Positions 1 through 43,228 of a DNA stretch of 43,228 nt are shown here, in pieces (position 1 is the first letter of the stretch; each line of letters starts with the position of its first letter). Position numbers and translations under genes: made by a program. Source of the stretch: Candidatus Sumerlaeaceae bacterium (GTDB lineage Bacteria > Sumerlaeota > Sumerlaeia > Sumerlaeales > Sumerlaeaceae); assembly GCA_026418615.1 (NCBI GenBank), contig JAOAAY010000028.1, positions 1-43,228 of the forward strand. Direction: 5' to 3'. Below the pieces are notes generated by a model. That model was not told where the DNA came from. It made no database searches and saw only the letters and a program-made list of their open reading frames with translations.

Positions 1-11
1 GCTAAGAAGCG

Positions 12-34
12 CTTGCCGTGCGCCGCGAGGCAAG
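12..34 (-). terminator. Possible weak terminator hairpin after the solute-binding gene
   Basis: A six-base inverted repeat (CTTGCC at 12-17 and GGCAAG at 29-34) lies just downstream of the minus-strand stop at 67. Read on the minus strand it is followed by a short pyrimidine stretch, but not by a clean T-run. It may be an inefficient terminator or chance. The rest of 1-66 shows no gene. Confidence 0.25.
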
Positions 35-66
35 TTTCCGCGCAGGGTATGCCCCGACGCCGCGCC

Positions 67-1569
67 CTACGGCGCCCCGGCAGTCGTGCCCGTCGTCAGC
101 AGGCCCGCCGCTTCGAGATCGCGGTTGATGGGGTCAAGTTCGCGGATTTGGAAGCGCGCGGCCGCCCGCCGCAGGATAGCCGCCGGGTCGGCCCGTTCGT
201 TGACCAGCACCTCCTGCACCGCCGGCCCCGTATATTGCTTGTACAATTGTTGGCACCGGTAGGGCGGCTCCGCGCGCACGGCCTGCGCCGCCTCCTGCAT
301 GAGATCCGACAGGTCCGGCACATTGCGGTACTCGTTCACAATCGCGTCGAGTTTCTCCTGATACTCCGGCAGGAAAATGGGAATATAGGGGATGCCGATG
401 CGCCGCCCCTGTTCGCTCAGCAGTTTCACGCGGGGCCTGACCAGATCGAGGTCGTGTTCGATCAGCATCGCGTCCACCGCGCGCTGCTTATGGAGACCGG
501 TCAGGCGGGGGTTGATGATCTGAAACGCCCCTCCGATCTGGTTGGCCCGCCCACCCGGACCTTTCGGCAGCAGGCAGATGCCGATTTTCTCGTAAGGCAT
601 CTGATACTTGTCCACCAGATAGGTGAGATACTCGGGCGTGAAAATCGCCATCGCGATGCGATCGGACGAAAACAGTTGGAATAACTCGTCGTTGGTCGCG
701 AGAACATTGCGTTGAAGCACATCGTGCTTCCAGCGCAGGTCTTTGATGAACTGCAGGGCGCGCACGGCCTCCGGCTCGTCAAAGACGGCCTTCCAGCGCC
801 CGTCGGGACCGCGCCGCTCAAAATCGCCGCCCGCCTGCCATACCCAGTTGAGGAAGTGCCAGCCCGAGGCGGCCGTTTCACCAAGGATGCCGAACCCGGC
901 CACGCCTCGTTCGCGGTTCGTGAGCCGTACGGCGTAGGTGGTGAAGTCTTCCCACGAGTCCGGCGGAATCGGACGGCCCTGCGGGTCGGTGAGCCCCGCC
1001 GCCCGGAACATGTCCACATTGTAAAACAGCGTCATGACATAGAAGCCGCCGGCCGCGCCCCCAACCGGCAGCCCGTAAATGCGCCCATCGCGCGAGATCA
1101 GATCGAGCATGCGCGGGTTGAGATACTTCGACAGCGGCCATGCGCGAATCTCTTCGGTGATGTCCGCCGACATGCGCCGGTCAAGAATCAGCGTGGCTTC
1201 CGTGGCAAATAGCCCGACCACATCGGTCAGAGTGCCGCCCACATATTTCGCGAAAAAACTGTCCGGGGAAAATTGCCAAGTGTCGTGGAACAGCGTCGCG
1301 TCGGGATATTTTTTTTCGAAATACTCCCGGACGAGGCGCTGCTCGGCCTGCCGTTTTGCATCGTCCTCGGGCGCACCATTGTTGAGCGTCACCACGAGGC
1401 GTCCGCCGGCCGCTTGCAGGGTGGATGTGGTGGAAGCCGGGGTGGACGCTGGCGCCGGGGAACCGCCCGAACGCATTCGCAGGGGCGGAACCCCGTATGT
1501 CCACAGCCCGGCTGCAAACAGCAGCACGGCAACCAACACCGCGGCTTGTGCCTTGAGACGCTGTATCAT
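67..1569 (-). CDS. ABC transporter extracellular solute-binding protein (sugar type)
   Basis: The protein has 500 residues. An N-terminal hydrophobic segment (about residues 9-27) anchors or exports it, followed by a Pro/Ser/Thr linker. The mature part has the two-lobe layout of family-1 (maltose/glycerol-3-phosphate type) binding proteins: a beta-strand VVTLNNG start, a DVVGLF segment, the NVDMFRAAGL region, an SWEDF segment and a flexible FGILGE loop. The likely role is capture of a sugar or oligosaccharide outside the cytoplasmic membrane. No permease or ATPase gene is adjacent in the window, so its partners must be encoded elsewhere or to the left. The start is uncertain: ATG at 1569 places the membrane segment near the N-terminus, ATG at 1611 is possible, and neither has a well-spaced Shine-Dalgarno. 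The family call is firm; the substrate is unknown. Confidence 0.85.
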   Translation of the reverse strand: MIQRLKAQAAVLVAVLLFAAGLWTYGVPPLRMRSGGSPAPASTPASTTSTLQAAGGRLVVTLNNGAPEDDAKRQAEQRLVREYFEKKYPDATLFHDTWQFSPDSFFAKYVGGTLTDVVGLFATEATLILDRRMSADITEEIRAWPLSKYLNPRMLDLISRDGRIYGLPVGGAAGGFYVMTLFYNVDMFRAAGLTDPQGRPIPPDSWEDFTTYAVRLTNRERGVAGFGILGETAASGWHFLNWVWQAGGDFERRGPDGRWKAVFDEPEAVRALQFIKDLRWKHDVLQRNVLATNDELFQLFSSDRIAMAIFTPEYLTYLVDKYQMPYEKIGICLLPKGPGGRANQIGGAFQIINPRLTGLHKQRAVDAMLIEHDLDLVRPRVKLLSEQGRRIGIPYIPIFLPEYQEKLDAIVNEYRNVPDLSDLMQEAAQAVRAEPPYRCQQLYKQYTGPAVQEVLVNERADPAAILRRAAARFQIRELDPINRDLEAAGLLTTGTTAGAP

Positions 1570-1655
1570 CGGTTGAGACGGGTCCTCCAGCCCGAGTGCA
1601 ACCGCTTCCATGCGGCCCGTCACTCGCAAAGTGCAACCGGAATGCTCTCCCGGAG

Positions 1656-1690
1656 AAAGAAAAAGCCGCCGGACCCGCAGGCCCGGCGGC
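1656..1690 (-). terminator. Rho-independent terminator of the secreted beta-protein gene
   Basis: GCCGCCGG (1665-1672) and CCGGCGGC (1683-1690) form a perfect 8-bp GC stem with a ten-base loop. Read on the minus strand it is followed at once by TTTTTCTTTC (1664-1655). It lies 26 bases past the stop of the gene ending at 1717. Stem, loop and T-run all fit an intrinsic terminator. Confidence 0.85.
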
Positions 1691-1716
1691 GACTTGCCCA
1701 GTGTGGATTGAAAACC

Positions 1717-2574
1717 TTAGAACAGGGACCAGTCCTCAACAGCGGCACCGGCTGGAACCGCGTATTTCGTCCGCACAGCATTCAGGAACGCTGCTTCAGT
1801 GGCAAATGCGTCGTCCCAGAAAGTGATGTCGTCAATGTGGACGACGGTGTTGGCCGTGCCGACCGCCGAACCCGCGATGCACAGACCCAAAGCAAACCGG
1901 TTGACCGTGGCCTGCACGGTTGGGTTCGCGGCGCCGCTGTACGACTGGAGCAGCACGGCTGAACCGTTGAGCGGATTAATGTCCCAAACCTTGTAGGAAC
2001 CGTTGGTGGCATTGGGCGTCACAAGCCATGCCAACAGATGCCAGCGTCCGCCATCGAGCGTAGCCCAGTTGCTCGGGTTTCCAGCGGCCCATGCGGTTGT
2101 GCTGATCGGACTCGCAGCGCCAGGCCATCCATTCTCATTGGTAGTGCGGAAATTGTTTCCATTGCCCCGCACATTGAAATACGGCGAATAGGTCCCCGCG
2201 GTGTGATCCAGCGTCATGATGTCCACATCCGTGTCCGTCGGGTCAAAACTGACGACGCGCAGCGGATAGGCAAACTGGATCGTGTTGGCATTCGTGGCGA
2301 TCGTGCCGCCATTGAATTGAACCCAGTCGTTCACGGAACCATCCGTCACAAAATACTTGGTGCTGCCGATGCCCGGAAACGGCGAAGCCGTGCCGATGCT
2401 CGAATACGGCGCCGCACCACCCGCCGTGCTGAGGGTAAACCCGGTAATGGACGGCGTGCCTGTGATGTCAGCCGACCCGTTTCCCGAAAGCCCTTCAAAT
2501 GTTTCCGTGACGCTGGCGGCGTAAACCGCCCCGGCAAACAAAATGGATGCTGCAGCAAAAAACAGGCGTTTCAT
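1717..2574 (-). CDS. Secreted protein of unknown function, beta-rich
   Basis: The protein has 285 residues and starts at ATG 2574 behind a well-placed GGAGG. A classical signal peptide (MKRLFF, a hydrophobic core, then VYAAS; about residues 1-19) predicts export. The mature protein is rich in Gly, Asn, Thr and Ser with alternating hydrophobic residues. It contains segments such as GGRWHLLAWLV and VHIDDITFWDD that resemble jelly-roll or LamG-like carbohydrate-binding sandwiches, but I do not recognise the family. There is no PEP-CTERM or other sorting tail; it ends in VEDWSLF. The gene is monocistronic, with its own leader, candidate operator and strong terminator, which suggests independent and perhaps high expression. 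Its codon use looks slightly less GC-rich than the neighbours. Confidence 0.75.
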   Translation of the reverse strand: MKRLFFAAASILFAGAVYAASVTETFEGLSGNGSADITGTPSITGFTLSTAGGAAPYSSIGTASPFPGIGSTKYFVTDGSVNDWVQFNGGTIATNANTIQFAYPLRVVSFDPTDTDVDIMTLDHTAGTYSPYFNVRGNGNNFRTTNENGWPGAASPISTTAWAAGNPSNWATLDGGRWHLLAWLVTPNATNGSYKVWDINPLNGSAVLLQSYSGAANPTVQATVNRFALGLCIAGSAVGTANTVVHIDDITFWDDAFATEAAFLNAVRTKYAVPAGAAVEDWSLF

Positions 2575-2612
2575 GTGATCCTCCAGAAAGTGGGTTAGCG
2601 GTATCTGAAACG

Positions 2613-2624
2613 CAAACGCGTTTG
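2613..2624. promoter_or_regulatory. Perfect 12-bp palindrome, candidate operator
   Basis: CAAACGCGTTTG is a perfect palindrome 39 bases upstream of the start codon at 2574. Its size and symmetry fit a LacI/GalR-type operator. A TTGACA hexamer on the minus strand (2670-2665) lies further upstream and may be a -35 element, but no good -10 is visible at the usual spacing. No regulator gene adjoins it. Confidence 0.35.
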
Positions 2625-2735
2625 AGAGGCCACCAATTGTCACTTACGACCCTCTCGTGGGACTTGTCAAGCCCCTGCTGACACCGCGTTGAATAGCACG
2701 ATACAAAATTCTCAGAAATGAAACCGCAGGGATGT

Positions 2736-3338
2736 TCATCCGCCGCCGAACACCCCGGCCTCGATCAACTCGCACCAGATGTGGATGACCGTGATGTGTG
2801 TTTCCTGAATCCGAGCGGTGGACTGACTGGGTACGATCACGCAGGCATCGCACAGGGCCGGCATGGCACCGCCGTCGCGGCCGGTGAGTCCTACTGTGCG
2901 GGCGCCCGCCCGCCGCGCCGCTTCGAGGCCGGCCAGCACATTGGGCGAAGTGCCCGATGTCGAGATCGCCACCACGACATCGCCCGGATGCACCAGCCCC
3001 TCGACCTGCCGCGCAAACACGCGTTCGTATCCATAATCGTTTGAGATCGCCGTCAGGCTCGACACATTTTCGTTGAGCGCCATGGCCGGCAGCGACGGCC
3101 GGTCGGCTGTGTACCGGCCCACCAGTTCCGCCGTGAAATGCACGGCGTCCGCCGCACTGCCCCCGTTGCCGAACGCCACCACCTTTCGCCCCGAGCGCAG
3201 CGCCTCAATCATCAGATCCGCCGCCGCCGCCACGGACTCCGGCAGGATCCGCGCCGACTCCTCCTTCAATCGCGCACTCTCGCGCAACACCGCCGCTATG
3301 CGTTCCCGAGCGTCCAACGCCGCCTCCTCTTCCGGCAC
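2736..3338 (-). CDS. SIS-domain phosphosugar isomerase (GmhA/DiaA-like)
   Basis: The protein has 200 residues, close to the usual GmhA length. It is a single SIS domain after an N-terminal helix pair. The sugar-phosphate loop reads GNGGSAADAVHF, the second conserved loop is ISTSGTSPN, and a late SQSTARIQETH segment matches GmhA/DiaA proteins. In lipopolysaccharide synthesis GmhA converts sedoheptulose-7-phosphate to D-glycero-D-manno-heptose-7-phosphate in the cytoplasm. DiaA is a close paralogue binding DnaA, so the exact role is not settled. No other heptose genes are near. The start is a GTG at 3338 without a clear Shine-Dalgarno, so the true N-terminus may differ slightly. Confidence 0.8.
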   Translation of the reverse strand: MPEEEAALDARERIAAVLRESARLKEESARILPESVAAAADLMIEALRSGRKVVAFGNGGSAADAVHFTAELVGRYTADRPSLPAMALNENVSSLTAISNDYGYERVFARQVEGLVHPGDVVVAISTSGTSPNVLAGLEAARRAGARTVGLTGRDGGAMPALCDACVIVPSQSTARIQETHITVIHIWCELIEAGVFGGG

Positions 3339-3435
3339 ATCGTCTCACTGCACAGACGCGCAAACACCGGAAAAAACCAGAAAAAACCGCCAACGACGGC
3401 ATGCAAGAGCCCCGACAAGTGCCATAAAAGAAGTG

Positions 3436-3610
3436 GATAACACAGAGACTGTCGCCCGACAGACCCTCGTGACACTCCCGTCAGGCTGGCCTTGGGTTTG
3501 ATTTTCTCTCGGCCTCTGCTGCGCTCCGATGGGGCCGTTGGCGACCCTGCGCCTTCGCGTTGAATTTCCGGTTTTTCTCGTTACTCTGTGTTGTCGCGCC
3601 TCTGCGGTGG
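3436..3610. repeat. Degenerate intergenic element with inverted ACACAGAG arms
   Basis: The gap 3339-3580 contains no convincing gene. Its ends carry inverted near-copies of a 12-base word: GATAACACAGAG at 3436-3447 and, on the other strand, GACAACACAGAG at 3595-3584. The right arm continues as CACCGCAGAGGCGCGAC on the minus strand (3610-3594). This resembles the 'CACAGAGGC(G/A)CAGAG...ACACAGAG' intergenic sequences I recall from many environmental genomes; that likeness is from memory. A 6-bp inverted repeat (CTGTCG/CGACAG) also lies near 3449-3462. The right arm overlaps the 3' end of the next gene. Confidence 0.45.
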
Positions 3611-5929
3611 CCTGTTGTCCGTCGGCCCGCCATGTGCCCGCCACTCGTCCACGGCTGCCTTATGCCAACCGGCCCAGACGAACTTCACGGCATCAATGTT
3701 GAACCGTTGGCCGGTGTTGGCTGAGGCTGGATTGTTGTTCGTGATCGTCAGCGACGCGCCCCCGCCCGGCTGCATCTCGACATCCGCCGCCAACAGGTAC
3801 CACTTGTCCGCAAGGTCAGGGTTGAGCCGCGACAGGTCGAATGTCCCTGAGACCTCGCCTGCGGCGCCAACGATGCGGAAACCGGCCCCCGGCGAGTGGA
3901 CATTCGGCCCTGCCGTGGCGTTCGGCCCGGTCACATAAACATGATACCGGCCGGGCGACACGATCTCCGGCCGGAAAACGGCATACGCGCCCAGCGAGTT
4001 GTCGCCTGTCCATCGCGCCCCCGACCCTGTCAATCCCGGCGCCGCGCTTTTCGCCGTCGTGTTCCCCCAGACTCCGCCACTCGTTAGAAACTCCTGATAG
4101 CGGGGCGCCAGCGTCTGCGCGCCGTTGGGCTGCCGGCTCTCGATGATGATGTCGGGCACAGCCACCACCGTGGCGGTCGCGCTGCTGACACCCGGCTCGC
4201 CCAACCCCGTGTCCGCGTCCTCATACAGCACCGTGATGGTGTCGCCGAGGGCCACCTCCAATTCTCCATTGCCGGGCATCGGCGCGCCAAACGACAGGGG
4301 AACGGTCGTCGCAAAAACCCCCGATGCCGGCTGGGTCTCTGCGAGGGTCACCGTCTCGCCGCCCGTATCGCTCGTGCTCGACATCCGCACCACCGCCGTG
4401 CCCGACCCGGCGAGGTCGCTGTCTACCAGCGTCACCACCGGCGAAACGCCGAACTGGTACGAGGCGCGGTCCATCGTCACCGTGCCGCGCGAGTTGCGCA
4501 GCGTAATCTCCACCACCGTCGCCTGTCCCGCCGTCACGGCCACATTCGACACCCGCCCCGTGCCGAGGCCCGCCTTCGTCGCCGTGAGCGTGGCGGTCGT
4601 GCCCGGTGCCACATAAATGATGGCAAAAAAGCCGTCCCACGCGGACAGATAATGATACGGATCTCCGGCGAGGTTCACCTTGGCGTCCAACACGGGCGCG
4701 CCCGACATGTCGCGCACATAGCCCACGATATGCCCCTGCGTCGGGGCCGTCTTCCACGGCATCTCGGCGACGGGGGCCTTCGCGGCGTACGGTCCGGACT
4801 TGAAACCCGCCCAATAGTTTGTCATCGAGCCGACCGAGAAGATGCAATGGCCCGCGGCGGACTGCAGCCGCGTCTGCTGATGCTCGGCCAGCAGGTCGGA
4901 CAGCGCCTTTGTCCCGCTGCCCGTCGTGCTGCCTGCCACGACCAGCCGGTCGCCGCGCCGGGCCTGCCAGTCGGCCAGCAGTTTCTCGAACGGGTGCGCG
5001 CTCCCGACAGTCCAATAAATTTGCGGCACCATGAAATCCAGCACCCGCGACTGCAGCCAGCCCCAGCCGTCCTGATACCACTGGTGATAGGCCTGAGTCC
5101 CTGTCCCCTGGTAGTTGGTGGTGGCGTCCTTGTACATGATGCCGAATGGCGCCGCGGAGGTTTTCACCCACGGCTTGTACCTCATGATCTCGCCGTGAAT
5201 GTTGCGCAGATCGCGCGTGATCTGACTGCGCATGAAATCCGCCCACCCGAGCCGGTCCGGGTTGCCGTCGCCGTTGAAACGCGCCACCGTGATGGGGTCA
5301 TAGGAATATCCGGGGCCGGGCGTGCGGATGCGGTCAAAGTGCACTCCGTCCACATCATAATTGCGTACGACATGCAGGATGGCCCGCCGCGTATGCCAAC
5401 TGGCCTCCGGGATGCCCGGACTCAGCCAGTAGTAACTGTCCACGAGGCCCGCCGGCACGCCGCCCGAGTCGTGGATCAGCCAGTTTTGTCCGGGCGGCGC
5501 CCCGGGCCCGTGCAGATTGTAAATGTGTTGCGGCACCGTGACCGCCGGCGGAACGGGCGCCGCCATGGTGTGCGTGTTGATGTACGCGTGAAACTCCAGC
5601 CCTCGCGAGTGCGCCGCCTCAATCGCGTAGGCCAGCGGATCCCAGCCCGGATTCGTCCAACCGTAAGTGTTCGACCACGGCTCGTACGGCGAGGGATAAT
5701 GCACATCGCACTGCCCGCGCACTTGAAACAGCACCGTGTTAAAATGGTTGTCGGCGATGTTCGACATGATGCGGTCAATGTTGGCCTTTGCCGTCGCCTG
5801 ATTGCTGCTCGGCCATTCAAACCGCGACACCCATATGGCGCGCGTTTCCGGAGCCGTCGTCTGGGCCGCGCCCGGTGCTGGCAACAGCGCCACCACCGCC
5901 GACGCCGCGACGAGGATGTGTCTTAACAT
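3581..5929 (-). CDS. Secreted glycosidase-like protein (GHL10 / family 10-like), multidomain
   Basis: The protein has 782 residues with a signal peptide (about 1-22, ending GAAQ). Residues about 28-360 form the GHL10 (DUF187) TIM-barrel-like domain: TRAIWVSRFEWP, a FNTVLFQVRGQCD segment, SRGLEFHAYINTH and YDVDGVHFDRIR match its conserved blocks. The family is thought to hydrolyse glycans, but few members are characterised. Next come a carboxypeptidase-regulatory-like beta domain (about 395-475), a second beta domain (about 485-590), and a golvesin/lyase-like C-terminal sandwich (about 600-770) that may bind carbohydrate. ATG 5929 follows GGGAG. The last residues (PPQRRDNTE) and the stop codon are written by the repeat arm at 3584-3610, so the tail was probably gained from that element. 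Confidence 0.85.
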   Translation of the reverse strand: MLRHILVAASAVVALLPAPGAAQTTAPETRAIWVSRFEWPSSNQATAKANIDRIMSNIADNHFNTVLFQVRGQCDVHYPSPYEPWSNTYGWTNPGWDPLAYAIEAAHSRGLEFHAYINTHTMAAPVPPAVTVPQHIYNLHGPGAPPGQNWLIHDSGGVPAGLVDSYYWLSPGIPEASWHTRRAILHVVRNYDVDGVHFDRIRTPGPGYSYDPITVARFNGDGNPDRLGWADFMRSQITRDLRNIHGEIMRYKPWVKTSAAPFGIMYKDATTNYQGTGTQAYHQWYQDGWGWLQSRVLDFMVPQIYWTVGSAHPFEKLLADWQARRGDRLVVAGSTTGSGTKALSDLLAEHQQTRLQSAAGHCIFSVGSMTNYWAGFKSGPYAAKAPVAEMPWKTAPTQGHIVGYVRDMSGAPVLDAKVNLAGDPYHYLSAWDGFFAIIYVAPGTTATLTATKAGLGTGRVSNVAVTAGQATVVEITLRNSRGTVTMDRASYQFGVSPVVTLVDSDLAGSGTAVVRMSSTSDTGGETVTLAETQPASGVFATTVPLSFGAPMPGNGELEVALGDTITVLYEDADTGLGEPGVSSATATVVAVPDIIIESRQPNGAQTLAPRYQEFLTSGGVWGNTTAKSAAPGLTGSGARWTGDNSLGAYAVFRPEIVSPGRYHVYVTGPNATAGPNVHSPGAGFRIVGAAGEVSGTFDLSRLNPDLADKWYLLAADVEMQPGGGASLTITNNNPASANTGQRFNIDAVKFVWAGWHKAAVDEWRAHGGPTDNRPPQRRDNTE

Positions 5930-6108
5930 GGATGCCGCTCCCTCGCCCTGACCAAATACACGAATGCTTGCTGTTCCCAAGTCCACCCGCCAGCGAAATC
6001 CGCCTGACACCGGGCATCTGGTTCTTGCAGGGCTCACTAACCAACCCACAAGCCTGACGCGCCGCCGGGTGACCGGTGTCCCGCCGTTTCATTTCTCCCA
6101 GTCCGCTA

Positions 6109-6138
6109 TTGACAAGATTCTTTCAATGCACCCTTAAT
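6109..6138 (+). promoter_or_regulatory. Candidate sigma-70-type promoter for the subtilase gene
   Basis: TTGACA at 6109-6114 is followed, after 18 bases, by CTTAAT at 6133-6138, in a locally AT-rich stretch between divergent genes. It points toward the protease start at 6269, leaving a leader of about 125 bases. The -35 is perfect; the -10 matches four of six positions. Confidence 0.4.
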
Positions 6139-6268
6139 TGACGGCGTAAGCCTGCGGAGGTGTGGAGGTCGGCGGGGGCCCGAGCAGGTGTTCGAAACCT
6201 GACACGCATAAATCCATCATTTTGCCAGCGCCCACAGCGGGCGACCGAGCAACAGGAGGGTGTAAATC

Positions 6269-8551
6269 ATGATTCGCCGCATTGTTTCGTTGTTGCTGTC
6301 CGGCATCGCGGCCGGACTCTGGGCGCAGAGCGCTCCACGCCCCACGCCGCCGCCGGAACCGCCCGTGAAACCCGTCATCGTTGCTCCCGTGGACCGCGAC
6401 CGCGACGGTTCGCGCGTGGATGACCGCATTGAGCAGCGCGTCGCCCGCGCCCGCGCGACGATGGCGCGCGCGGGTGTTGCCCCCGCGGAGATCGCCGCAG
6501 CGCAGGCTGTGCTCCAAGAACCCGCCGCGGTGGAACTCATCTTCGACCGTCAGATCTCGCAGGATCAGATTGACGCCTTTCTCAAGGCCGGCGGAACGAT
6601 TGACCATGTTTTTCAGCGCGTGAGTTACGGGTTCACTGGTCGAATCCCAACCGGCCAAGCCGAGACTCTTCCCGCCGCCCTCGGGGCTTCTCTCCTTGGC
6701 GTCGTGGAAAAATCCGCCACGGCGCCAACCCTTGACCATGCCACGCGCAACAGCCGCGCCCGGCCGACGGTTTGGAATGCCGGCGTGGACGGCAACAGCG
6801 CCGCGCCCCCTAACGCCAACGGCATCACCATCGCCATTCTCGACACGGGCGTGGACGGCAGCCACACCGACCTCTCCGGCCGCCAGCAGTATTGGAAAGA
6901 TTGGACGAGCGACAACCTGCCCACCGCGCAAGACATCGGCCACCACGGCACCCATGTGGCCGGCATCGCCGCCGGTACGGGCGCTGCCGCGGGAGCCAGC
7001 CCCTCGAGCATCTCCTTCATGTCGCTCGGCAACTTTCCGCTCGCAGGCGGCAGTTTCTTGCCCGCCCCGCTTTATGTCCAGCCCAACCCCATCAACTGGA
7101 CGACGACTCTCCGGTTCGCAACGCTCACGACGGCCACCGCCCTTGTCGCGATTGGGTTCGCCAATGGTGAGGGTCCCTCCTCCTCGTGGGGAGGCGGGGC
7201 CGCGGTGACCGGTACGGTGAGTCCCATTTCCACTTCGGTTTCCGGCCTGACGAATCCGCAACCCGGCTACATCAACCGCTGGTCACCCATCATTACCACG
7301 ACCTCCGGTTCCAACGGCGAGGAGTACGCAGCCGCCACCAGTGTCACTTATGCCGGCCTCGGCGACGGCTACAATGTCGTGCGCGGCGTTGCGCCGGACA
7401 CGAGGTGGGCCGGACTCAAGGTGTTTAAAGACGATGGCTCAGGCAACACCCTGGACATTGGCGAGGCGCTGGACGATATCGTGGCGCAGAACTCGACGCA
7501 CAATATCAAGGTGGCAAACATGAGCCTTGGCGTTGTCGGTTCGCCCGGGCTCGACAGCACCGTGCGGGCCAAGGTCAACACTGCCGCCTCCAACGGGATC
7601 GTCATGTGCGTCGCGGCCGGCAACGACGGGCAGGCCGGGTCGGCTCCCGCCCGCGAAATTGACGACCCCGGCCGCGCTCATTACTGTATCACGGTCGCCG
7701 CCTCCAACGATATCAATCAGTTGACCGATTACTCCAACGCCGGCTTCACGCCGATGGGCCCCGGTTCCGGAGCAGAGGACATCAAACCCGACCTGTGCGC
7801 GCCGGGAGGCTCGCGCCACTACTCCATGATCATGGCCGCCGACAGCAACAACGGCGACAGCCTGAACAATACAGGGGCCAATTTCAGCGACTCCGTTGCC
7901 AACAATTACTACAACATCTCGGGCACCTCGATGGCTACGCCCCATGTCGCGGGCGCCGTCGCCCTCGTCATTGACGCCCGCCAACAGGCCGGCATCGCCT
8001 GGGTCTACAATCTCGCCAGCGTTCTCGCAGTGAAAGCCGTCTTGCTCGCGACCGCCACCGAGACCAACCAGAACCGCGAACAAGGTCCCGGAAGCAACCC
8101 CACGCTCAATCGCGGCGCCAAGGACACGCAGGAAGGTTTCGGTATGATCAATGTTGATGCGGCCACGGAACTTTTCACCAACGCTGTGATCACGGGCCCC
8201 AGCCTGAGCGGTCTGTCCGACACCTTTGGCTCGGGACCCTTTGATAAGCGTTGCTGGGCCCGCCGCGTCCAACTGACCAACGGCAGCCCCGTCACGATCA
8301 ACTTGGATAATCCGGCCGCCGGCGACTACGATGTGTACCTGTACAGCGCCACCCCCGACACCTACGGCAACCCTCAGATCCTCGCCTCCTCCACCACCGC
8401 GGGCGTCGGCGTGGATCACACCCTGTCGTACACGCCCACGGCAACGCAGGTGGCCTATCTCGTCGTCAAGCGCGTCAGCGGCAATGGCACTTGGTTCTTT
8501 GGTTCCGGCAGTTTCGTTCCCGTCGGCGTGACGGAATTCATTACCGAATAA
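6269..8551 (+). CDS. Secreted subtilisin-like serine protease (peptidase S8) with C-terminal PPC-like domain
   Basis: The protein has 760 residues. It starts at ATG 6269 behind AGGAGGG, with a signal peptide of about 20 residues. A propeptide-like region precedes the catalytic domain. The triad motifs are DTGVDG (about residue 190), GHHGTHVAG (about 225-233) and GTSMATPHVAG (Ser about 552). The spacing is unusual: roughly 120 extra residues (about 245-370), rich in Gly, Ser and Thr, sit between the His motif and the RGVAPDTRWAGLKV strand that normally follows soon after it. The C-terminus (about 665-755) resembles a bacterial pre-peptidase C-terminal domain (YDVYLYSATPD). It probably acts outside the cell as an endopeptidase. 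It overlaps the convergent gene at 8541 by 11 bases. Confidence 0.92.
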   Translation: MIRRIVSLLLSGIAAGLWAQSAPRPTPPPEPPVKPVIVAPVDRDRDGSRVDDRIEQRVARARATMARAGVAPAEIAAAQAVLQEPAAVELIFDRQISQDQIDAFLKAGGTIDHVFQRVSYGFTGRIPTGQAETLPAALGASLLGVVEKSATAPTLDHATRNSRARPTVWNAGVDGNSAAPPNANGITIAILDTGVDGSHTDLSGRQQYWKDWTSDNLPTAQDIGHHGTHVAGIAAGTGAAAGASPSSISFMSLGNFPLAGGSFLPAPLYVQPNPINWTTTLRFATLTTATALVAIGFANGEGPSSSWGGGAAVTGTVSPISTSVSGLTNPQPGYINRWSPIITTTSGSNGEEYAAATSVTYAGLGDGYNVVRGVAPDTRWAGLKVFKDDGSGNTLDIGEALDDIVAQNSTHNIKVANMSLGVVGSPGLDSTVRAKVNTAASNGIVMCVAAGNDGQAGSAPAREIDDPGRAHYCITVAASNDINQLTDYSNAGFTPMGPGSGAEDIKPDLCAPGGSRHYSMIMAADSNNGDSLNNTGANFSDSVANNYYNISGTSMATPHVAGAVALVIDARQQAGIAWVYNLASVLAVKAVLLATATETNQNREQGPGSNPTLNRGAKDTQEGFGMINVDAATELFTNAVITGPSLSGLSDTFGSGPFDKRCWARRVQLTNGSPVTINLDNPAAGDYDVYLYSATPDTYGNPQILASSTTAGVGVDHTLSYTPTATQVAYLVVKRVSGNGTWFFGSGSFVPVGVTEFITE

Positions 8552-33185: not shown

Positions 33186-33467
33186 CTACAAGATCTCGAC
33201 CAGATGTTCCCGAACCTCAAAGTCAGCGGCCGTCTCCAGATCCTTCATGACGGCGCGAAAGAGCGAGTCCACCTGTTCGCGATTGGCGTAAACCGTTACA
33301 ATGGCAATGACGGCGCTGCGCCAGATGTCATGATCGTCCACCTCGGCAACGGCGCAGTTGTAGGTGGTGCGCAGCCGGTGAATGGTTTTCTTTACCACAG
33401 AGCGTTTGTCTTTGAGCGAATTGGCGCCTACGATGTGCAGGTGGACGCGCAGCGACCCGATGACCAT
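33186..33467 (-). CDS. DUF503 / YlxP-like small protein
   Basis: The protein has 93 residues, the standard DUF503 size. The family blocks are MVIGSLRVHLHIVGANSLKDKRS at the start (split here as conserved VGSLRV-type strand and the SLKDKRSVVKKTIHRLR helix), then NCAVAEVDDHDIWRSAVIAIV. These proteins have a ferredoxin-like fold. In many bacteria they sit near infB-rbfA and a ribosome-associated role has been suggested. Here the neighbours are an Mg transporter and an aldo/keto reductase. ATG 33467 lacks a clear ribosome site. It begins 50 bases after the MgtE stop and may be cotranscribed. Confidence 0.85.
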   Translation of the reverse strand: MVIGSLRVHLHIVGANSLKDKRSVVKKTIHRLRTTYNCAVAEVDDHDIWRSAVIAIVTVYANREQVDSLFRAVMKDLETAADFEVREHLVEIL

Positions 33468-33517
33468 GATGCGTTCAGGTGATGCGGCGCAGTGAGACTG
33501 CCGGTCAAGACGAGGTG

Positions 33518-34507: not shown

Positions 34508-34598
34508 GACAGGCACCTCCCGTGGCGTTTACAACATCCATAGCCGCCTGCCGGCGGTGTCATGCACGGCGACGATGCGGGCTTCCGATGGGGGCGTA

Positions 34599-35348: not shown

Positions 35349-35438
35349 GACAGTTGCCTGTTTTTCGGATTGTTCAAGGTGGCGGCCTCTTCAGGCCGCC
35401 GCGTTCCTACGGGCGGCCCCCACGCGGTGCAACAGATT

Positions 35439-36491: not shown

Positions 36492-36728
36492 GGGGCGGCA
36501 GGGGAAACAACTCAAGGTTTGGCGGTCAAGGGCGGTTTGAGCGGGATCACATGAACCGCATTGCACCGCGCGAGAGGCTCAACCGTACCATGCCGTACAG
36601 GCACCGCATCCCGCGCGACGAAGCGGCAAGGGCGACAAGCGTCCTAAATAAGGATGTTTCAACCATCTGCATACCCGCGAGAAGAGGTCACAGGCCATGG
36701 CGTGACCTTTGCGACTTCCGCCGGTGCC

Positions 36729-37631
36729 ATGTCACTGCGTGCCACCACTGTTACGGTCGTCACTCTGATCATGCTGGCGTTGATTATGGCCCTCGTGGCG
36801 GATTGGCGCCAGTCCAGCCGCCACGGTTCTGCCCAGAATCCCGCATCAGGCCCGGCACCTTCGGTCTCGGGGTCTGCCGGCGGGCAGCCGACTTTCCTGT
36901 TCGGGAACGCTCCGCGGCCCTCCAACTCGTCGCGAGGAGTGCGCGAATACAATCTGCCCGCTTCTCCGACCATCAAGCAACCGTCGGCGCAACCGGCAAA
37001 CCGTCAGGCTGCCTTGTCCGTAGCCCGGCTGAGGGCACTTTACGATCTGACATCAGACCCCTTCGAACGGGCGGGCCTTGCGGCAGCCATGGCCGAATGC
37101 CCGTCGGCCGACGCCGGACATCAACTGCTGGATCTGATCGCGCGCGAGGAGGATGGCGATGTGCGGCTCGCATTGCTGCGGGCGCTCGCGCAATGGCCGG
37201 GGCGCGCAGAATTGGCCGCAGAGATCAGCGTCGCTTTGCGAGCCCGGTTTGCGGCCATCGAAAACGACCTGTCCGAGCGTGTCGCCGTGCTCGATACCCT
37301 CGGCGAACTGCCCGATGCAGCGGCCGCATCGTTGCTTGAGGAGGTCGCGTTCGATCCGGCGTCCGATCCGTCCGAGCGTGCCGCGGCGGCGGCCAGCCTG
37401 TTGCGCCAGTATGAGGCGGGCTGGCCCGGAGCCGCGCGGCTGGATGCGCACGCGCTGAGAACTGCGCTCGCCCTCGATGCGCAGGCAGCCGCCGATGTCG
37501 GGACGCGCATGCTGGCGGTGTCGGCGCTCGCGATCAGCCCAACGGGCCACGAAAAGGTGTTTCACGGTCTCTTGAAGACCGAATCCGACAGCGGGCTGCG
37601 GCGAATGCTGCAGCACCTGGCTGACGAATGA
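36729..37631 (+). CDS. Membrane-anchored helical-repeat protein of unknown function
   Basis: The protein has 300 residues from ATG 36729; the frame is open to 36654 but this start puts the single membrane helix (about 6-23, TVVTLIMLALIMALVADW) at the N-terminus. A Ser/Pro/Gly-rich linker (about 30-95) is followed by an all-alpha region of roughly 40-residue units (LYDLTSDPFERAGLAAAM, LRALAQWPGRAELAAEI, LDTLGELPDAAAASLLEEV). These read like HEAT or armadillo-type repeats used for protein binding. No catalytic motif is visible. Ribosome sites are weak. It overlaps an open ATGA at 37628 but the next real start is probably 37721. Confidence 0.65.
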   Translation: MSLRATTVTVVTLIMLALIMALVADWRQSSRHGSAQNPASGPAPSVSGSAGGQPTFLFGNAPRPSNSSRGVREYNLPASPTIKQPSAQPANRQAALSVARLRALYDLTSDPFERAGLAAAMAECPSADAGHQLLDLIAREEDGDVRLALLRALAQWPGRAELAAEISVALRARFAAIENDLSERVAVLDTLGELPDAAAASLLEEVAFDPASDPSERAAAAASLLRQYEAGWPGAARLDAHALRTALALDAQAAADVGTRMLAVSALAISPTGHEKVFHGLLKTESDSGLRRMLQHLADE

Positions 37632-37720
37632 AAGGTTTCTCAGCGATGGGCGCAGCGTCCACAGCAAAGCGCACCACGCTACGAGGCAGCACACAATACC
37701 ATTTCGCGGGAGGAGCAACC

Positions 37721-38593
37721 ATGAGCAGGTACAACTTGCGGGCCTTGATGGCAACCCTTGCCATCTGCGCCCTTGTCATGCCAGCCGCGCTCAGCGCGCA
37801 GTCGTCCGATCCCACCACCTCGGGACCGTTTGTGATCGGCAAGGTGACGGTGAAAGACCCGCGCATCCTTGATGTTACCGGCACCCCCTACGAATTCGAC
37901 GGCGTCAACCACGACATCGTCCTGGGGCTGGTTCAGGATCCGCGGGGAAACCTGATCAGCACGGGCGTCGTCACGCTGAGTGAAGGCACGACACGCCCGG
38001 TGCGCCTGACGGGCCGGCTCAATGTGATAAGCACAGGTCCCCTGACCTTTGTTTTGCACAACCAGCCATTTCAGCCGCAACCGCCTCAGCCAGCCCCCGC
38101 GTCCGATGTGTCAATGACCCCGACATCTGGCCCGCTGCTGATCATCTCAGGCGTGCTCGCGGGGCCTGAATTCCGCTGCCGTGTCGTGGCCAAAGACTTT
38201 GCACCCGGCTTGGGCGAGGAGTTTGACGCTCCCCTACTGCCGAAGAAACCCGTGCGGGGTTTTGTGGTGCAGCCGGCGCCCGTGCGCCAGATTGCGCCGG
38301 GAGTGTTTGTGAGCCTGCGGCGGATTGATTTGCCTTGGGGGCAGATTCTCTTGCCGGCTGTTCAACGGCCTGCGCTTGGCAAGGGCATTGTTTTCCAAAT
38401 TCCTGACCAGCGGCGCAAGGGCACGCCTGTACTGCGCTTGCCGTTCGGGCTGGAGGTCGTGGGCATGCCCGACGGACTGGGCGGATTCCAAGTGGACATG
38501 AGCCGCGTGATGCTGCCCTACGGCATGCTGCTGGTGCCGCCGGCGGATACCGAGGTGTTGCCGCTGGCACCGCTGCCAACGGCAGCCCAATAG
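37721..38593 (+). CDS. Exported protein of unknown function
   Basis: The protein has 290 residues. ATG 37721 is chosen because GGGAGGAG lies just upstream and a classical signal peptide follows (hydrophobic LMATLAICALVMPAALSAQ, cleavage near residue 26). The mature protein is beta-rich and Pro/Val-rich, including GKVTVKDPRILDVTG, an HDIVLGLVQDPRGN segment, a Pro/Gln stretch (FQPQPPQPAPAS) and a positively charged C-terminal half with LPFGLEVVGMPDGLGGFQV. I do not recognise a family. It lies 89 bases after the helical-repeat gene and ends in a strong terminator, so the two may form one short operon. Confidence 0.65.
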   Translation: MSRYNLRALMATLAICALVMPAALSAQSSDPTTSGPFVIGKVTVKDPRILDVTGTPYEFDGVNHDIVLGLVQDPRGNLISTGVVTLSEGTTRPVRLTGRLNVISTGPLTFVLHNQPFQPQPPQPAPASDVSMTPTSGPLLIISGVLAGPEFRCRVVAKDFAPGLGEEFDAPLLPKKPVRGFVVQPAPVRQIAPGVFVSLRRIDLPWGQILLPAVQRPALGKGIVFQIPDQRRKGTPVLRLPFGLEVVGMPDGLGGFQVDMSRVMLPYGMLLVPPADTEVLPLAPLPTAAQ

Positions 38594-38620
38594 ATTTCTC
38601 TCCATCTCCCATCAGGATCA

Positions 38621-38657
38621 GGGGGCGGGTTCCGGCCCAACCTGCCCCCTTTTCCTT
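38621..38657 (+). terminator. Rho-independent terminator
   Basis: GGGGGCGGGTT (38621-38631) pairs with AACCTGCCCCC (38639-38649): eleven base pairs with one G-U wobble and a seven-base loop. TTTTCCTTT follows directly. It lies 28 bases past the stop of the exported-protein gene at 38593, in the 190-base gap before the coiled-coil gene. Confidence 0.9.
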
Positions 38658-38785
38658 TGACGGAGAACCGCCGCCGGCACCATCCGCAAGGACTGTCGCG
38701 GCGGGTGTCATAAATCCCTTGAAAGTGCACGCCTTTGTGGCAAGTACCACAGGGAAAATTCTCAATCCGGCGAGGAATTTAGTGT

Positions 38786-38989
38786 ATGTCCAACCTGACG
38801 GCAGAAGACATCCTCAAAAAGGTGCAGGCCAAGATCGCCGAGCAAAATCAGGTCATCCTGGAACAGCAGATGCAAATTCAGGAGTACCAACAGAAGGTTG
38901 AGGATCTGGATCGGCAACTGAATGAGTTGAAAGCAGCCGAAGCCGAAAAGCAGACCCTCATGGCGAAACTCGCCGAGTTGATCGAATAG
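38786..38989 (+). CDS. Small coiled-coil protein of unknown function
   Basis: The protein has 67 residues from ATG 38786, with GAGGA about ten bases upstream. Nearly all of it is one charged amphipathic helix with heptad spacing (ILEQQMQIQEYQQKVEDLD, then LNELKAAEAEKQTLMAKLAEL). It has no Cys, membrane segment or signal, and probably oligomerises. Coding status is supported by the ribosome site, a clean heptad pattern and a terminator upstream that makes this the first gene of a new transcript. It lies 110 bases before dacA and could be cotranscribed with it. Confidence 0.65.
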   Translation: MSNLTAEDILKKVQAKIAEQNQVILEQQMQIQEYQQKVEDLDRQLNELKAAEAEKQTLMAKLAELIE

Positions 38990-39099
38990 GCTCCGGATGC
39001 TTGTCTGGCCGCGGTGCCGCCCGTGGCGCGCGCGGCACTGTCTGTGCTTGTGGCGCGGGCTTGCCCTGATGGTGGTGGCGTGACGGAGGCGAGACCCGC

Positions 39100-39903
39100 G
39101 TGCAAGAAATTCTCAGTTTTATCAGATCCATGCAGGTGCAGGATGTGCTCGACATCCTGCTCGTGACAGGGATCCTCTATTTCATCCTGTCCGTCATCCG
39201 CGAGAGCCGCTCGCCCACCGCGATGCGCGGCCTGCTGGGCATGATGCTCGCGGCGGTCGCCGTGTACACCTTGGCGCGGTTGCTCGACCTGACCACAACC
39301 ACCATGCTGTTCGAGCGTTTCTGGCTCGTCTTGGTGCTGCTGGTCATTATCGTCTTTCAGAACGAATTCCGCAAGGCCCTCACGGACTTGGGCCATATTT
39401 GGGTGTTCCGGCGGCTTTTCATGCGCAACACGGCTGCCGTGGACGAAATCGTGAAGGCCGTCCGGACTTTTTCGCGCCAGAAGGTGGGGGCGCTCATTTG
39501 CCTCGAGCGGCGCACACCGTTAAAAACTTATGCGGATACAGGAACCGCCATTGACGGGCTGGTCTCGGCGGAACTGCTGCGCACGATTTTTATGACCTAT
39601 TCGCCCCTGCATGACGGCGCCGTGATCGTGCGCGGCGATCGGATCGTGGCGGCCGGCTGCATCCTGCCCCTGTCGGCCAATCCCGCGCTGGCCAAGGAAC
39701 TGGGCACGCGCCACCGCGCCGCCATCGGACTGAGCGAAGAGACCGACGCCGCCGTGGTGGTCGTATCGGAGGAGACGGGCATCATCTCGCTCGCCCTGAG
39801 GGGCAAGATCGAGCGCAACCACACACAGGAATCGCTGCGGGAGGCGATCAAGGACATCCTCGATGTCAAAGACGACGATCAAGAAGAGCCCGCAGCGGTT
39901 TAG
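39100..39903 (+). CDS. dacA: Diadenylate cyclase, CdaA/DacA type
   Basis: The protein has 267 residues. It starts at GTG 39100 after GGAGG. Three N-terminal membrane helices (about 13-30, 45-60, 70-88) precede the DAC domain. The catalytic signatures are HDGAVIV (about residue 170) and GTRHRAAIGLSE (about 201), the DGA and RHR motifs that join two ATP into cyclic di-AMP. QNEFRKALTDLG links the membrane part to the catalytic part, as in CdaA. It acts at the cytoplasmic face of the membrane. Its 3' end overlaps the next gene, a CdaR-like regulator, by 41 bases, the usual gene pair. Confidence 0.95.
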   Translation: MQEILSFIRSMQVQDVLDILLVTGILYFILSVIRESRSPTAMRGLLGMMLAAVAVYTLARLLDLTTTTMLFERFWLVLVLLVIIVFQNEFRKALTDLGHIWVFRRLFMRNTAAVDEIVKAVRTFSRQKVGALICLERRTPLKTYADTGTAIDGLVSAELLRTIFMTYSPLHDGAVIVRGDRIVAAGCILPLSANPALAKELGTRHRAAIGLSEETDAAVVVVSEETGIISLALRGKIERNHTQESLREAIKDILDVKDDDQEEPAAV

Positions 39904-40972
39904 GCTGACGGACAACCTCAACTACCTGCTGGCCGCATTCGGCGTGGCCTTTGTGGCGTGGGTTTTTGCGAAGTCGGGCCAGACGCTGGAATCGCGCGTG
40001 GTTGTGCCGGTGTTGCTGAAAAATGTGGACCCGCGCATCGAGGCGCGGGTCGCGCCGGAGTCGGTGCCGGTTGTCATGCGTTATTCCAGCGATCTGCAGG
40101 GATACATCAACAGCGAAAACTTTCACTTTGAAGTGGACGGCAGCGACCTGCGGCAGGGACTCGGGCTGGAGTGGAAAACAAGGTCGCTGGCCCTGACGGA
40201 AAAAAACTGGGTGTCGCATCTGCCCCGGCGCCGGCGGGTGACGCTGGTGCGCATCGGCGGCTCCGGCAACACCGTGGAAATCCGCGCGCGTTGGCGCGCT
40301 CAGGCGGCCGTGGTCGAAGCCGATGTGGTGGGGGCCGCAGACCTGCCTGAGGGGCTGCAACTGGCCGCTGTCCGGGTGACGCCGCGCGAGGTGTGGGTTG
40401 CCGGCGACGACGCAGCCCTCGCCGGGCTGCCGCGCGACGAAGCCACGGGACGCCTGCGCCTGCTGACCGAGCGTGTCAGCGCCGCCAACCGCACCCAAGG
40501 AGCCATCGAAAATGTCGGCATCCGCCTGCCGGCCGGAGTGGAGATTGTCCAGCCCCCGACCACCTTTGCTGAGGTTTATCTGGACATTCAGGAGGTCGTC
40601 TCCATCCGCGAACTCCGGGATCTGCCGTTGCAGTTCGAGGCCGTCTCGCCCGACACCATCCGCCTCGAGTACAACGCCACCACAGCCACAGTCACCGTCC
40701 GCGGTCCGCAAAGTTTGCTCAAGCAACTCGGCACAGAGTCCATCGAGGTCCGACTCGTGCGCCCGCCCGAGGAACTGCCCGGCACCGTTCGCGAAGTGCC
40801 GGTCGAGGCACGCTTCAGCCGCATGGTCCCCGACGATGTCCGCGCACGCTTGTCCATCCAGTCCGTCGAGCCGAAGACCATCAAAGTCCGTTACGCCCAG
40901 AAGGCTGAATCGCCGGCTCAGAGGAGTACGCCGCCGGCGGACACACCCGGGCAGCCCAACACGCTCAATTAG
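39863..40972 (+). CDS. cdaR: YbbR-domain protein, CdaR-like regulator of diadenylate cyclase
   Basis: The protein has 369 residues. A short cytoplasmic start is followed by one membrane helix (about 21-38, YLLAAFGVAFVAWVFA) and an extracytoplasmic part made of YbbR repeats. Repeat signatures include VVVPVLLKNVDP, VPVVMRYSSDLQGYI, LQLAAVRVTPREVWVAG and VSIRELRDLPLQFE. In Firmicutes CdaR binds CdaA across the membrane and tunes c-di-AMP output. The last 20 residues are a Pro/Thr-rich tail. ATG 39863 lies inside dacA, so translation is coupled. Its TAG overlaps the convergent sbcC stop (TTAG at 40969-40972). Confidence 0.88.
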   Translation: MSKTTIKKSPQRFRLTDNLNYLLAAFGVAFVAWVFAKSGQTLESRVVVPVLLKNVDPRIEARVAPESVPVVMRYSSDLQGYINSENFHFEVDGSDLRQGLGLEWKTRSLALTEKNWVSHLPRRRRVTLVRIGGSGNTVEIRARWRAQAAVVEADVVGAADLPEGLQLAAVRVTPREVWVAGDDAALAGLPRDEATGRLRLLTERVSAANRTQGAIENVGIRLPAGVEIVQPPTTFAEVYLDIQEVVSIRELRDLPLQFEAVSPDTIRLEYNATTATVTVRGPQSLLKQLGTESIEVRLVRPPEELPGTVREVPVEARFSRMVPDDVRARLSIQSVEPKTIKVRYAQKAESPAQRSTPPADTPGQPNTLN

Positions 40973-43228
40973 GCAAGCACGAGCCGCGCGTGACTGGCAC
41001 CGTGGGTCGTGGTGACCTCCAGCCGGGTGTTGCGGATGCGCTCGCGCAACTCGGCGACATGCGAGATGATGCCCACAAGGCGCCCGCCCTCGCGCAGCAG
41101 CATGAGCGCCTCCATGGCGCGGTCGAGGGCGTCGGAGTCCAGGCTGCCGAAACCCTCGTCAATAAAGACCGTGTCGAGCCGAATACCGCCGGCGAGGCTC
41201 TGCACGGCATCGGACAGGCCAAGGGCAAGCGCGAGGGCGGCAACAAAGGTTTCTCCGCCCGACAGGGTCTCCACGGGACGAACCTTGCCACTGTAACCGT
41301 CCTTAACCTCCAGGTTCAGTCCGGCTTGCAACTCGCGCTTTCCTCGCGCCTCCGTCTTGCGCTGCAGGCGGTAGCGCCCGCCACTCATCGTGGCAAGGCG
41401 GCCGTTGGCATGCATGAGTACCTCGTCGAGCCGGTACCCGAGCACGAACCGGTGGAATCCCGGATTGGCGGGCGCGCGGCCGCTGGCCAGGTCTGCGAGC
41501 CGCTGCACGCGCTGATGCTCGCGCTCGCGGGCGGCAAGCCGCTTCGTGATCTCGTCGAGTTTTTTCGTCACATCGGCCAGTTGTTTGAGCGCCGTGCGCA
41601 ACGAGCCAATGCGCGTGTCGCAATTCTGAATGGCCTGCCGCGCTTCGTCACAGGCGGCGCGAAGTGACGGCAGATTGGGAGCCTTCAGCCCCTTCGCCGC
41701 CTCGGTCGCCTTTTGCAGGCGATCGCGGGCTGCCACAATGGCCTCGTCATAACGGCGGAGTTCGCCAGCGAGTTTCTCCATGTCGCGGGTGGACATGATG
41801 GAAGCCTGATAATCCTTTTCATTGGCAAATCCGGCTTTTTTCAGGCGCTGCTCGAGTTCGGCCTGCGCCTTCACGGCCGCAGCCTCGCGCTTGTCCCGCT
41901 CGGCTTTGGCCGACTTGACCTTTTGCTCACAACCGGCGTGCTGCTTTTCCGCCCGAGCAAGACGGTCGCGGGCTGCCTGCAGGGCGGCGTCCAATTGCTT
42001 CAGGATTTTCTCCTGCCGGGCGATCGCCTTCTCCAGCGCTCCGGCTGCACGCAGCGGCTTCTCAACCTGTGCCTCAAGTTCGTTGACCTGCGCCCGCGCG
42101 CTGGCAGCCTTTTTCTGGGCGGAAGCCTCGTCCTTCGTTGCCGCATCCAGCCGCGCGCGAGCCTGCTGCAACCCGCGGGTCAGCGCTTGAATGGTCCCGC
42201 GGATCTCGCGGACGCTTCCGGCAGCCTTTTGCGCGCGGCCCAAGGCGTCTTGCTGCTTCTTGAGTTGGCTTTCCAGCCGCGTGACACTGACGCCGGCCGC
42301 GGCCTTCTCGAGCGACTTTTCCAGCGTTTCAACCTCTTTGGCGGCGGCGGCAACGGCGCTCTGAGCCTTCGACTCGTCGCGCTGAGCAGCCTTGAGCGCC
42401 TTTTCGGCCTCGGCAGCCTGCTTCTCCAGCGCGGCGATTTTGTCCGCGGTGGCGATGCCGCGGGCGGGCTGGGCCGGCGAGGGATGTTCGGTCGAGCCGC
42501 ACACGGGGCAGGGTTCTCCGTCCACGAGACTGGCGGCCAGTTCGGCGGCAATCCCGCGCAGGCGCTCCTCACGCGCCTTGTCCAGTTGCTTGCGTGCCTT
42601 TTCGTGCGCCGCCTCGGCCTCGGCCAGCGCCGCGGCAGCACTCTTGGCCGCGCGCTCGGCAGCCGCCTGCTGCTTGCGGGCTTCTTTCAGGCGTTGCACC
42701 ACCTTGATGGTCTTCTCCGCATTCTTGATCTGCGCCTCGAGCCCCGCAAGTTTCGCCGCCTCGACGGAGGCGATTTCGTGCTGCTTTTTGGCCTCCTCCA
42801 ACTCTTTTTCCGCCTTGGTGGCGGCCCGGTGGGCCTTGCGGCGGGCCTCCGCGGCTGCCAGCACCTTGGCCTCCGCCTCCGCAAGCGTCTCTGTGGCTTT
42901 CATGAGTTTGGTGACCTGGGGCTCGAGGCTCCGCAGGCGCTGGAGTTTCGCGCGTTCCGCCTCGCGCTCCGGTTCACGGCGCTCCTCGCGATCCATGTCG
43001 CTGCGCGCCTGTTTGAGTTCCGTCGCAGCCGCGCCCAGCATCGCCTCGGCGCTGCTCAGTTGTCCGGCAGCCTCTTTGGCCTCTTTTCGGCGCTCGTCGC
43101 GGTTGGCGACGGCATCGGACAGTTTTGCGGCGCGCTCGGCCCGCTCCAGTCGTGCGCGCTGGCTGTCGCGTTGCGGGCGTTCGTCCTCGAGTTTTTTTAC
43201 GGCTGTTTCCGCCGCGGTCTTTTCGTCA
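40969..43228 (-). CDS. sbcC: SbcC-like exonuclease subunit, 3' part (5' end outside window)
   Basis: The frame is open from the stop at 40969 to the right edge, about 753 residues; the N-terminal Walker A half lies beyond 43228. The visible part is two long Ala/Glu/Lys/Arg-rich antiparallel coiled coils around the zinc hook CPVCGSTEHPSP (near 42480-42520). It ends with an ABC head: LSGGETFVAALALALGLSD (signature), DTVFIDEGFGSLD (Walker B and D-loop), and IISHVAELRERI (H-loop). With SbcD (Mre11-like) it would process DNA ends and hairpins. An internal Met at codon position 43041 is not the start, because the coiled coil continues unbroken upstream. Confidence 0.93.
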   Translation of the reverse strand, partial: DEKTAAETAVKKLEDERPQRDSQRARLERAERAAKLSDAVANRDERRKEAKEAAGQLSSAEAMLGAAATELKQARSDMDREERREPEREAERAKLQRLRSLEPQVTKLMKATETLAEAEAKVLAAAEARRKAHRAATKAEKELEEAKKQHEIASVEAAKLAGLEAQIKNAEKTIKVVQRLKEARKQQAAAERAAKSAAAALAEAEAAHEKARKQLDKAREERLRGIAAELAASLVDGEPCPVCGSTEHPSPAQPARGIATADKIAALEKQAAEAEKALKAAQRDESKAQSAVAAAAKEVETLEKSLEKAAAGVSVTRLESQLKKQQDALGRAQKAAGSVREIRGTIQALTRGLQQARARLDAATKDEASAQKKAASARAQVNELEAQVEKPLRAAGALEKAIARQEKILKQLDAALQAARDRLARAEKQHAGCEQKVKSAKAERDKREAAAVKAQAELEQRLKKAGFANEKDYQASIMSTRDMEKLAGELRRYDEAIVAARDRLQKATEAAKGLKAPNLPSLRAACDEARQAIQNCDTRIGSLRTALKQLADVTKKLDEITKRLAAREREHQRVQRLADLASGRAPANPGFHRFVLGYRLDEVLMHANGRLATMSGGRYRLQRKTEARGKRELQAGLNLEVKDGYSGKVRPVETLSGGETFVAALALALGLSDAVQSLAGGIRLDTVFIDEGFGSLDSDALDRAMEALMLLREGGRLVGIISHVAELRERIRNTRLEVTTTHGASHARLVLA

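Follow-up and report, generated by a model that had tools for sequence, protein, structure and literature searches.

The window analysed here is the whole of contig JAOAAY010000028.1 (C42), 43,228 bases from the metagenome-assembled genome (MAG) of a Candidatus Sumerlaeaceae bacterium (GCA_026418615.1, here G000). It holds 29 predicted genes covering 34,368 bp and a Mu-like phage head module (Table 1), and lacks two four-base words, AGCT and ACGT, entirely. Base composition alone predicts 142 copies of each, and a maximal-order Markov model 91.4 of AGCT and 103.3 of ACGT; the control words ACCT and AGGT occur 143 and 139 times. A null model in which synonymous codons are permuted within genes, preserving the protein and each gene's codon usage (codon shuffle below), gives expectations of 83.6 AGCT and 98.1 ACGT for the 29 genes, where none are found. 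The trinucleotide AGC is followed by G 286 times, by C 279 times, by A 168 times and never by T, and AAGCTT, GAGCTC, CAGCTG, GAGCT and CAGCT all have counts of zero. A preliminary description of this DNA had claimed that AGCT is absent, that AGC never precedes T, that HindIII-, SacI- and PvuII-type hexamers are therefore missing, and that Glu-Leu is spelled in other ways, with one GAACTG as its example; all of this is borne out, and the description understates the effect. Its expectation of roughly 140 copies stands as a base-composition figure, although about 84–91 is fairer.

The segment with the phage module (10400–16600) is mobile DNA, and here too both words are missing (ACGT 0 of 15.5 expected, AGCT 0 of 10.7). 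Relatives of this portal protein in viruses retain both words at 20 of 20 loci, and a search for near-matching phages over positions 1–25000 found none.

The loss extends beyond the window to every other part of the genome that was read. The MAG comprises 3.57 Mb in 124 contigs and is 92.3% complete; 80 pieces totalling 1,576,590 bases (44%) were readable, and 20 further small contigs consist of N throughout. Its PheS finds its best match among named genomes in a Candidatus Sumerlaeota MAG, at 67% identity, which makes a Sumerlaeota relative the probable source. Observed over expected counts are 4/339 for AGCT and 2/313 for ACGT in seven stretches of about 20 kb from other contigs, 25/2073 and 13/2019 in a set of 43 pieces (863,463 bases), and 40/3721 and 25/3777 by Markov expectation in all 80 pieces. 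For 920 predicted genes (1.206 Mb), codon shuffle gives 8/3150 and 9/3289. Outside called genes, counts in the 863 kb set are 21/611 and 10/555, a fraction that includes transfer RNA (tRNA) genes as well as missed genes (for example in L176 and L226), genes having been called by simple scoring of open reading frames (ORFs) rather than by a standard gene finder. The preliminary description had proposed looking for AGCT at its expected frequency in the rest of the genome; instead the loss recurs on the other contigs and across the pooled pieces, and an effect confined to the window was rejected. It is not literally complete, as 65 sites remain in 1.58 Mb.

Some other words are also scarce in genes by codon shuffle: RTCGAY (158/1454, 0.11), CCWGG (1052/4336, 0.24), CTAG (141/555, 0.25) and TTAA (0.34), with GTYRAC, which includes GTCGAC, and GTAC mildly low at 0.57 and 0.72. 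The near-cognate controls CCSGG (0.85) and YTCGAR (1.25) are not strongly avoided. The strongest four-, five- and six-letter losses in the 863 kb set are all of palindromic words or palindromic sets; the next six-letter loss, TAATAC (14/37), is not a palindrome. Both AGCT and ACGT fit the pattern A-S-S-T, the target of SetI, and the preliminary description had offered a single activity with such a relaxed target as an alternative to two, with ACCT and AGGT as controls. Counted by codon shuffle over the 920 predicted genes, ACCT (4458/4027, 1.11) and AGGT (3218/3038, 1.06) are not avoided while AGCT is nearly gone, which refutes a single enzyme of this kind.

The 65 survivors are 40 AGCT and 25 ACGT, and 25 of them lie inside 25 tRNA genes that together cover 1,983 bp. 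At 1.0 per gene, compared with 45 sites in 73 tRNA genes of other genomes, their density is no lower than elsewhere, and tRNA genes therefore show no sign of purging. The 40 sites outside tRNA genes (21 AGCT and 19 ACGT) include one in a 6S RNA. Such a concentration in structured RNAs might be expected if a sequence-specific RNase, for example a toxin, cut AGCU and ACGU in messenger RNA while folded RNAs escaped. Against avoidance at the RNA level, DNA outside called genes has also been purged (in a fraction to which missed genes contribute), and palindromes rank as the words avoided most strongly, as expected of dimeric DNA enzymes rather than RNases; although palindromes carry no strand information, we consider it very unlikely. 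Some of the other survivors fall in AT-richer, atypical genes that may be recent arrivals. An AAA/DUF4276 gene pair with three AGCT is probably one of these. Further candidates are four sites together at the start of contig C44 and two in a gene of low G+C content adjoined by glycosyltransferase-like and membrane-protein-like ORFs, with a weak, below-cut-off match to a restriction endonuclease model (E 0.0092). Many further survivors are single and in seemingly ordinary genes.

Table 1. Positions of the features discussed, in the window (C42) and at other loci of the same genome.
Feature	Locus	Positions	Strand	Basis or remarks
Whole window, without AGCT or ACGT on either strand	C42 (G000)	1..43228	.	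Word counts
Mu-like phage head module (Gp36-like, major head, cement, protease, portal)	C42	12124..16502	-	PHROGs and Pfam matches
GAACTG, Glu-Leu spelled without GAGCTN	C42	39571..39576	+	Direct reading of sequence
6S RNA	L197	153-331		One surviving site
AAA/DUF4276 gene pair	L176	8057-10041		Resembles HEC-01 defence candidate; AT-richer; three AGCT
Four surviving sites within 170 bases	L168	243-405		Start of contig C44
148-amino-acid gene	L226	14114-14560		Lowest G+C in its set; both words, once each, within 60 bases
Downstream neighbour of CcrM-like methyltransferase	L001	2452-3426		325 amino acids
HNH protein	L174	8802-9620		PADLOC 'REase' match
Truncated C5-methyltransferase-like start	L220	1921-2340		Phage-like contig C96; weak match (E 0.0079, 0.011)

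How the sites were lost can be seen from their position relative to the reading frame. By codon start phase, genes contain 2/698, 2/1855 and 4/582 of the expected AGCT and 3/1104, 3/1823 and 3/378 of the expected ACGT. If the C of these words were methylated and deaminated to T, sites would erode by mutation, and the preliminary description had looked to AGTT and AACT as relics of AGCT. Products of C-to-T and G-to-A changes are indeed enriched in places (AGTT 2.30 in phase 0, AACT 1.94 and ATGT 2.21 in phase 1), namely where few or no other synonymous exits can be reached in one step. But the words are also gone in phases where these changes would alter the amino acid, NNA-GCT (4/582) and NNA-CGT (3/378, the hyphen marking the codon boundary). 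Exits here are chiefly via the flanking A, to GGCT (1.39) and GCGT (1.35), while the deamination product AGTT is at 0.66; at ACG-T, the exits ACTT (2.35) and ACCT (1.37) exceed ACAT (1.14). Escape uses any available synonymous change, transversions included, and since all phases have been emptied in this way, the engine is mainly selection against the word and not decay of methylated C. Among AGCT survivors NNA-GCT is slightly over-represented (4/8, versus 582/3135 expected), which leaves room for a small mutational share. The profile search described below yielded no C5 methyltransferase from the genome, and as the main cause of the loss deamination is highly improbable.

The same evidence bears on an artefact, whether sequencing, base-calling or assembly error at modified motifs or the edited or recoded window raised in the preliminary description. 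The loss is unusually complete, and the genome is a MAG. However, the sites in tRNA and 6S genes read normally, the replacements respect the reading frame and leave the protein unchanged, something of which a basecaller has no knowledge, and DNA outside called genes has been emptied too; contigs of up to 272,738 bases could hardly have been assembled from a library cut at AGCT and ACGT. There is almost no chance that the pattern arose in this way.

The survivors also date the pressure. Counting single changes that would create either word, 24,281 synonymous ones are possible in genes and 35,794 changes outside called genes; the 17 genic and 23 extragenic survivors outside tRNA genes then cap the neutral divergence since any relaxation at about 0.21% and 0.19%, if all changes have equal rates. 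The best reading is that the pressure is active now or was so until less than about 0.2% divergence ago. At equilibrium, a ratio of about 0.0026 would imply that each site has a scaled cost of about 6, taken as ln(expected/observed).

Relatives do not share the loss. It was seen in none of seven genomes of the same family, with 20–60 kb readable in each, and in none of 19 read among 32 of the class or phylum (4–20 kb each). The lowest ratio for either word in these samples is 0.36, on an expectation of 11. The loss is thus lineage-specific among the genomes sampled, and a clade-wide trait was rejected because none of the seven same-family genomes shows it.

We regard it as probable that AGCT and ACGT have been under long and strong selection, and RTCGAY and CCWGG under weaker selection, imposed by several orthodox Type II restriction specificities. 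What the counts show is the signature of selection; which enzymes exerted it, and whether they still act, we infer. From the restriction and modification reading of the preliminary description, restriction-type activities are retained as the best explanation, the most strongly avoided words being palindromic, restriction-type targets, and the idea of two activities is supported in kind; neither the relaxed A-S-S-T target nor an M.AluI-like methylase is supported. Each site would carry a small risk of chromosome cutting through incomplete protection, and a scaled cost (2Nes) of about 6 would let mutation, selection and drift hold a word at about 0.25% of expectation. A lethal enzyme would be unnecessary, as persistent leakage in a large population over a long time would suffice. 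We propose that tRNA sites stay because tRNA structure would outweigh the cost of cutting, and their retention suggests that they are normally protected.

Avoidance of several palindromes, with graded strength, in one lineage fits the Type II pattern. According to Rusinov et al. (2015; PMC4687349), avoidance is found for sites of orthodox Type II systems and is greater with longer residence; other types show none, apart from Type IIM at GATC and Type III at CAGAG. The same paper describes under-represented short palindromes that are lineage-specific, with more than one word per genome, as here. The present case differs in degree, with two 4-bp words reduced to about 0.25% of the codon-shuffle expectation, against an avoidance cut-off of 0.78 for a different ratio in that paper, and also in that searches here turned up no cognate genes. 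The phenomenon itself is known; this example is extreme, unusual in its degree and in its missing enzymes. CTAG, which is rare in prokaryotes as far as the available text of PMC6471742 describes, is low here too; it is also low in many sampled relatives and less extreme in this genome, whereas this genome alone, of those sampled, shows the loss of AGCT and ACGT. No report of a near-absence of AGCT or ACGT was found in the literature searched, part of it accessible only as excerpts, which is not proof that none exists.

Several points weigh against this explanation. One is that searches of the available assembly turned up no cognate restriction genes. AluI-type systems target AGCT, and MaeII/TaiI/HpyCH4IV-type systems ACGT, precisely the purged words, yet neither kind of gene was identified. 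M.AluI, which acts at AGCT (PMC12707154, as available in part), is a methylase whose like the preliminary description had proposed to look for; a profile search for C5 methyltransferases (PF00145) gave no match in this incomplete assembly and matched in 10 of 14 control genomes. Searches with PF02384 and PF07669 likewise gave no match where controls did; those with PF09019, PF15515 and PF05063 gave none, though no control matched either. Nor was a convincing endonuclease found in the assembly, endonuclease families being mostly unsearched. A regular expression for methyltransferase motifs, run over the 80 pieces in 6,825 stretches from stop to stop, gave convincing matches only to the two methyltransferases that other searches had found; the remaining [DNS]PP[YFW] matches listed were judged by eye to be chance. 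PADLOC, run on 107 of 271 ORFs omitted by the gene caller and not on the 920 called genes, had restriction-type matches only to MutY and a conserved HNH protein that occurs across the phylum. The latter was rejected as a cause, since six of the seven same-family genomes carry it without avoidance (it is present in 43 of 61 genomes searched). The same scan listed one mad2-like and one viperin-like match. For these 107 ORFs, none of the 25 NCBIfam families listed, of 175, is restriction-type.

The two known methyltransferases are a weak PF02086 match on the phage-like contig C96 and a PF01555 match on contig C30. The C30 enzyme is CcrM-like (PDB 6pbd, E 2.8e-23; 95 bits with the NCBIfam CcrM model, versus a cut-off of 830) and has relatives of 54–62% identity in eight of 193 genomes. 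The gene downstream of it (L001 2452-3426) holds one surviving AGCT, which may be another recent arrival. Also counting against the restriction explanation, seven of these eight genomes retain both words in samples of 3.4–24 kb, AGCT being lowered to 12/26 in G014, and in G025 the 3.4 kb around the relative (L268) have 0/6 AGCT and 15/12 ACGT, which is too short to judge. In G012, a 392-amino-acid ORF adjoining the CcrM-like methyltransferase (L263 2537-3715) has no Pfam or PADLOC match and a C-terminal cysteine pattern resembling that of iron-sulphur DNA glycosylases. The phage-like contig (L220, 3.8 kb) carries the D12 methyltransferase and an ORF that appears integrase-like by eye, and has no AGCT or ACGT. 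If selection by Type II systems is the explanation, their genes would lie in the unassembled or unread part of the MAG or belong to unrecognised families. The absence of enzymes from an assembly is weak evidence because genomic islands and mobile regions are under-recovered in MAGs, according to the portion of PMC13381789 that was available.

That absence has two other possible meanings. The avoidance could be a fossil, left by restriction systems that purged the words and were lost very recently. This would account for the failure to find any C5, type I or Eco57I-type methyltransferase in the searched assembly; traces of avoidance that persist after loss of a system are described in the accessible text of PMC4687349, and the truncated C5-like start on C96 might be a remnant, though its match is weak. 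But for both words the loss of the systems would have to be younger than about 0.2% neutral divergence, a narrow interval, and several specificities would all have to be gone, which makes it rather unlikely. Alternatively, the system or systems may be of an unrecognised sort, with nucleases whose protection is not by methylation or comes from an unknown family, or with a solitary nuclease acting on a nearly site-free genome. A near-total purge alongside very few known methyltransferases would suit this, as would the gene downstream of the C30 methyltransferase. At the limits used, nothing in Pfam, PADLOC, PHROGs or NCBIfam matches its product, nor does anything among phages, plasmids or viral contigs, and its sole relative among 193 genomes (in G179) also adjoins a methyltransferase. 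However, tRNA genes retain sites, so that a solitary nuclease without protection would cut within essential genes, and the structure model of the product, built from two sequences, is useless (mean predicted local distance difference test score, pLDDT, 32.6). Unrecognised nucleases are an unlikely cause. The most novel form of this idea, which we hold equally unlikely, is an unrecognised DNA-targeting system aimed at AGCT and ACGT in this Sumerlaeota-related lineage, protected by something other than a methyltransferase of known family or hardly needing protection in an almost site-free genome; the downstream product would be one candidate component.

If long selection by restriction is the cause, nature has run an unusually clean experiment here on the extent to which such pressure can remodel a chromosome. 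Sites have been removed synonymously in their thousands while tRNA genes were spared, and the survivors gauge how recent the pressure is. The figures suggest that a small cost per site is enough for near-total loss, and that the restriction specificities of uncultured bacteria may be predictable from words alone. With its missing methyltransferases, the genome offers a test of whether such pressure can arise from systems yet unrecognised.

For comparison, 873 pairs of palindrome and locus (75 loci, expectation at least 25) were tabulated, a small and taxonomically uneven baseline. Two fall below 0.05, and total loss of a single palindrome is therefore rare, though not unique. These are GATC, at 1/28 in L029, and ACGT, at 0/49 in 21 kb of an Elusimicrobiales MAG (L059, CALUZQ010000005.1), where TCGA is at 3/31; the genome of the latter has one C5 methyltransferase (G193:C4:18443-19486). 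In the same class as the present genome, G019 (loci L152 and L266) has GGCC at 2/135, CCWGG at 1/34, GTAC at 2/14 and RTCGAY at 0/11, and is also without a PF00145 match. The near-total loss of a single palindrome in L059 and G019 resembles that described here, but their samples are only 21–24 kb, compared with two words over 1.58 Mb. Within the class to which G019 and the present genome belong, palindrome losses this extreme may recur. Partial losses were seen of CCWGG in G004 (24/104), of GATC (19/83) and CCWGG (3/17) in G006, and of GGCC in G028 (3/32) and G030 (0/14).

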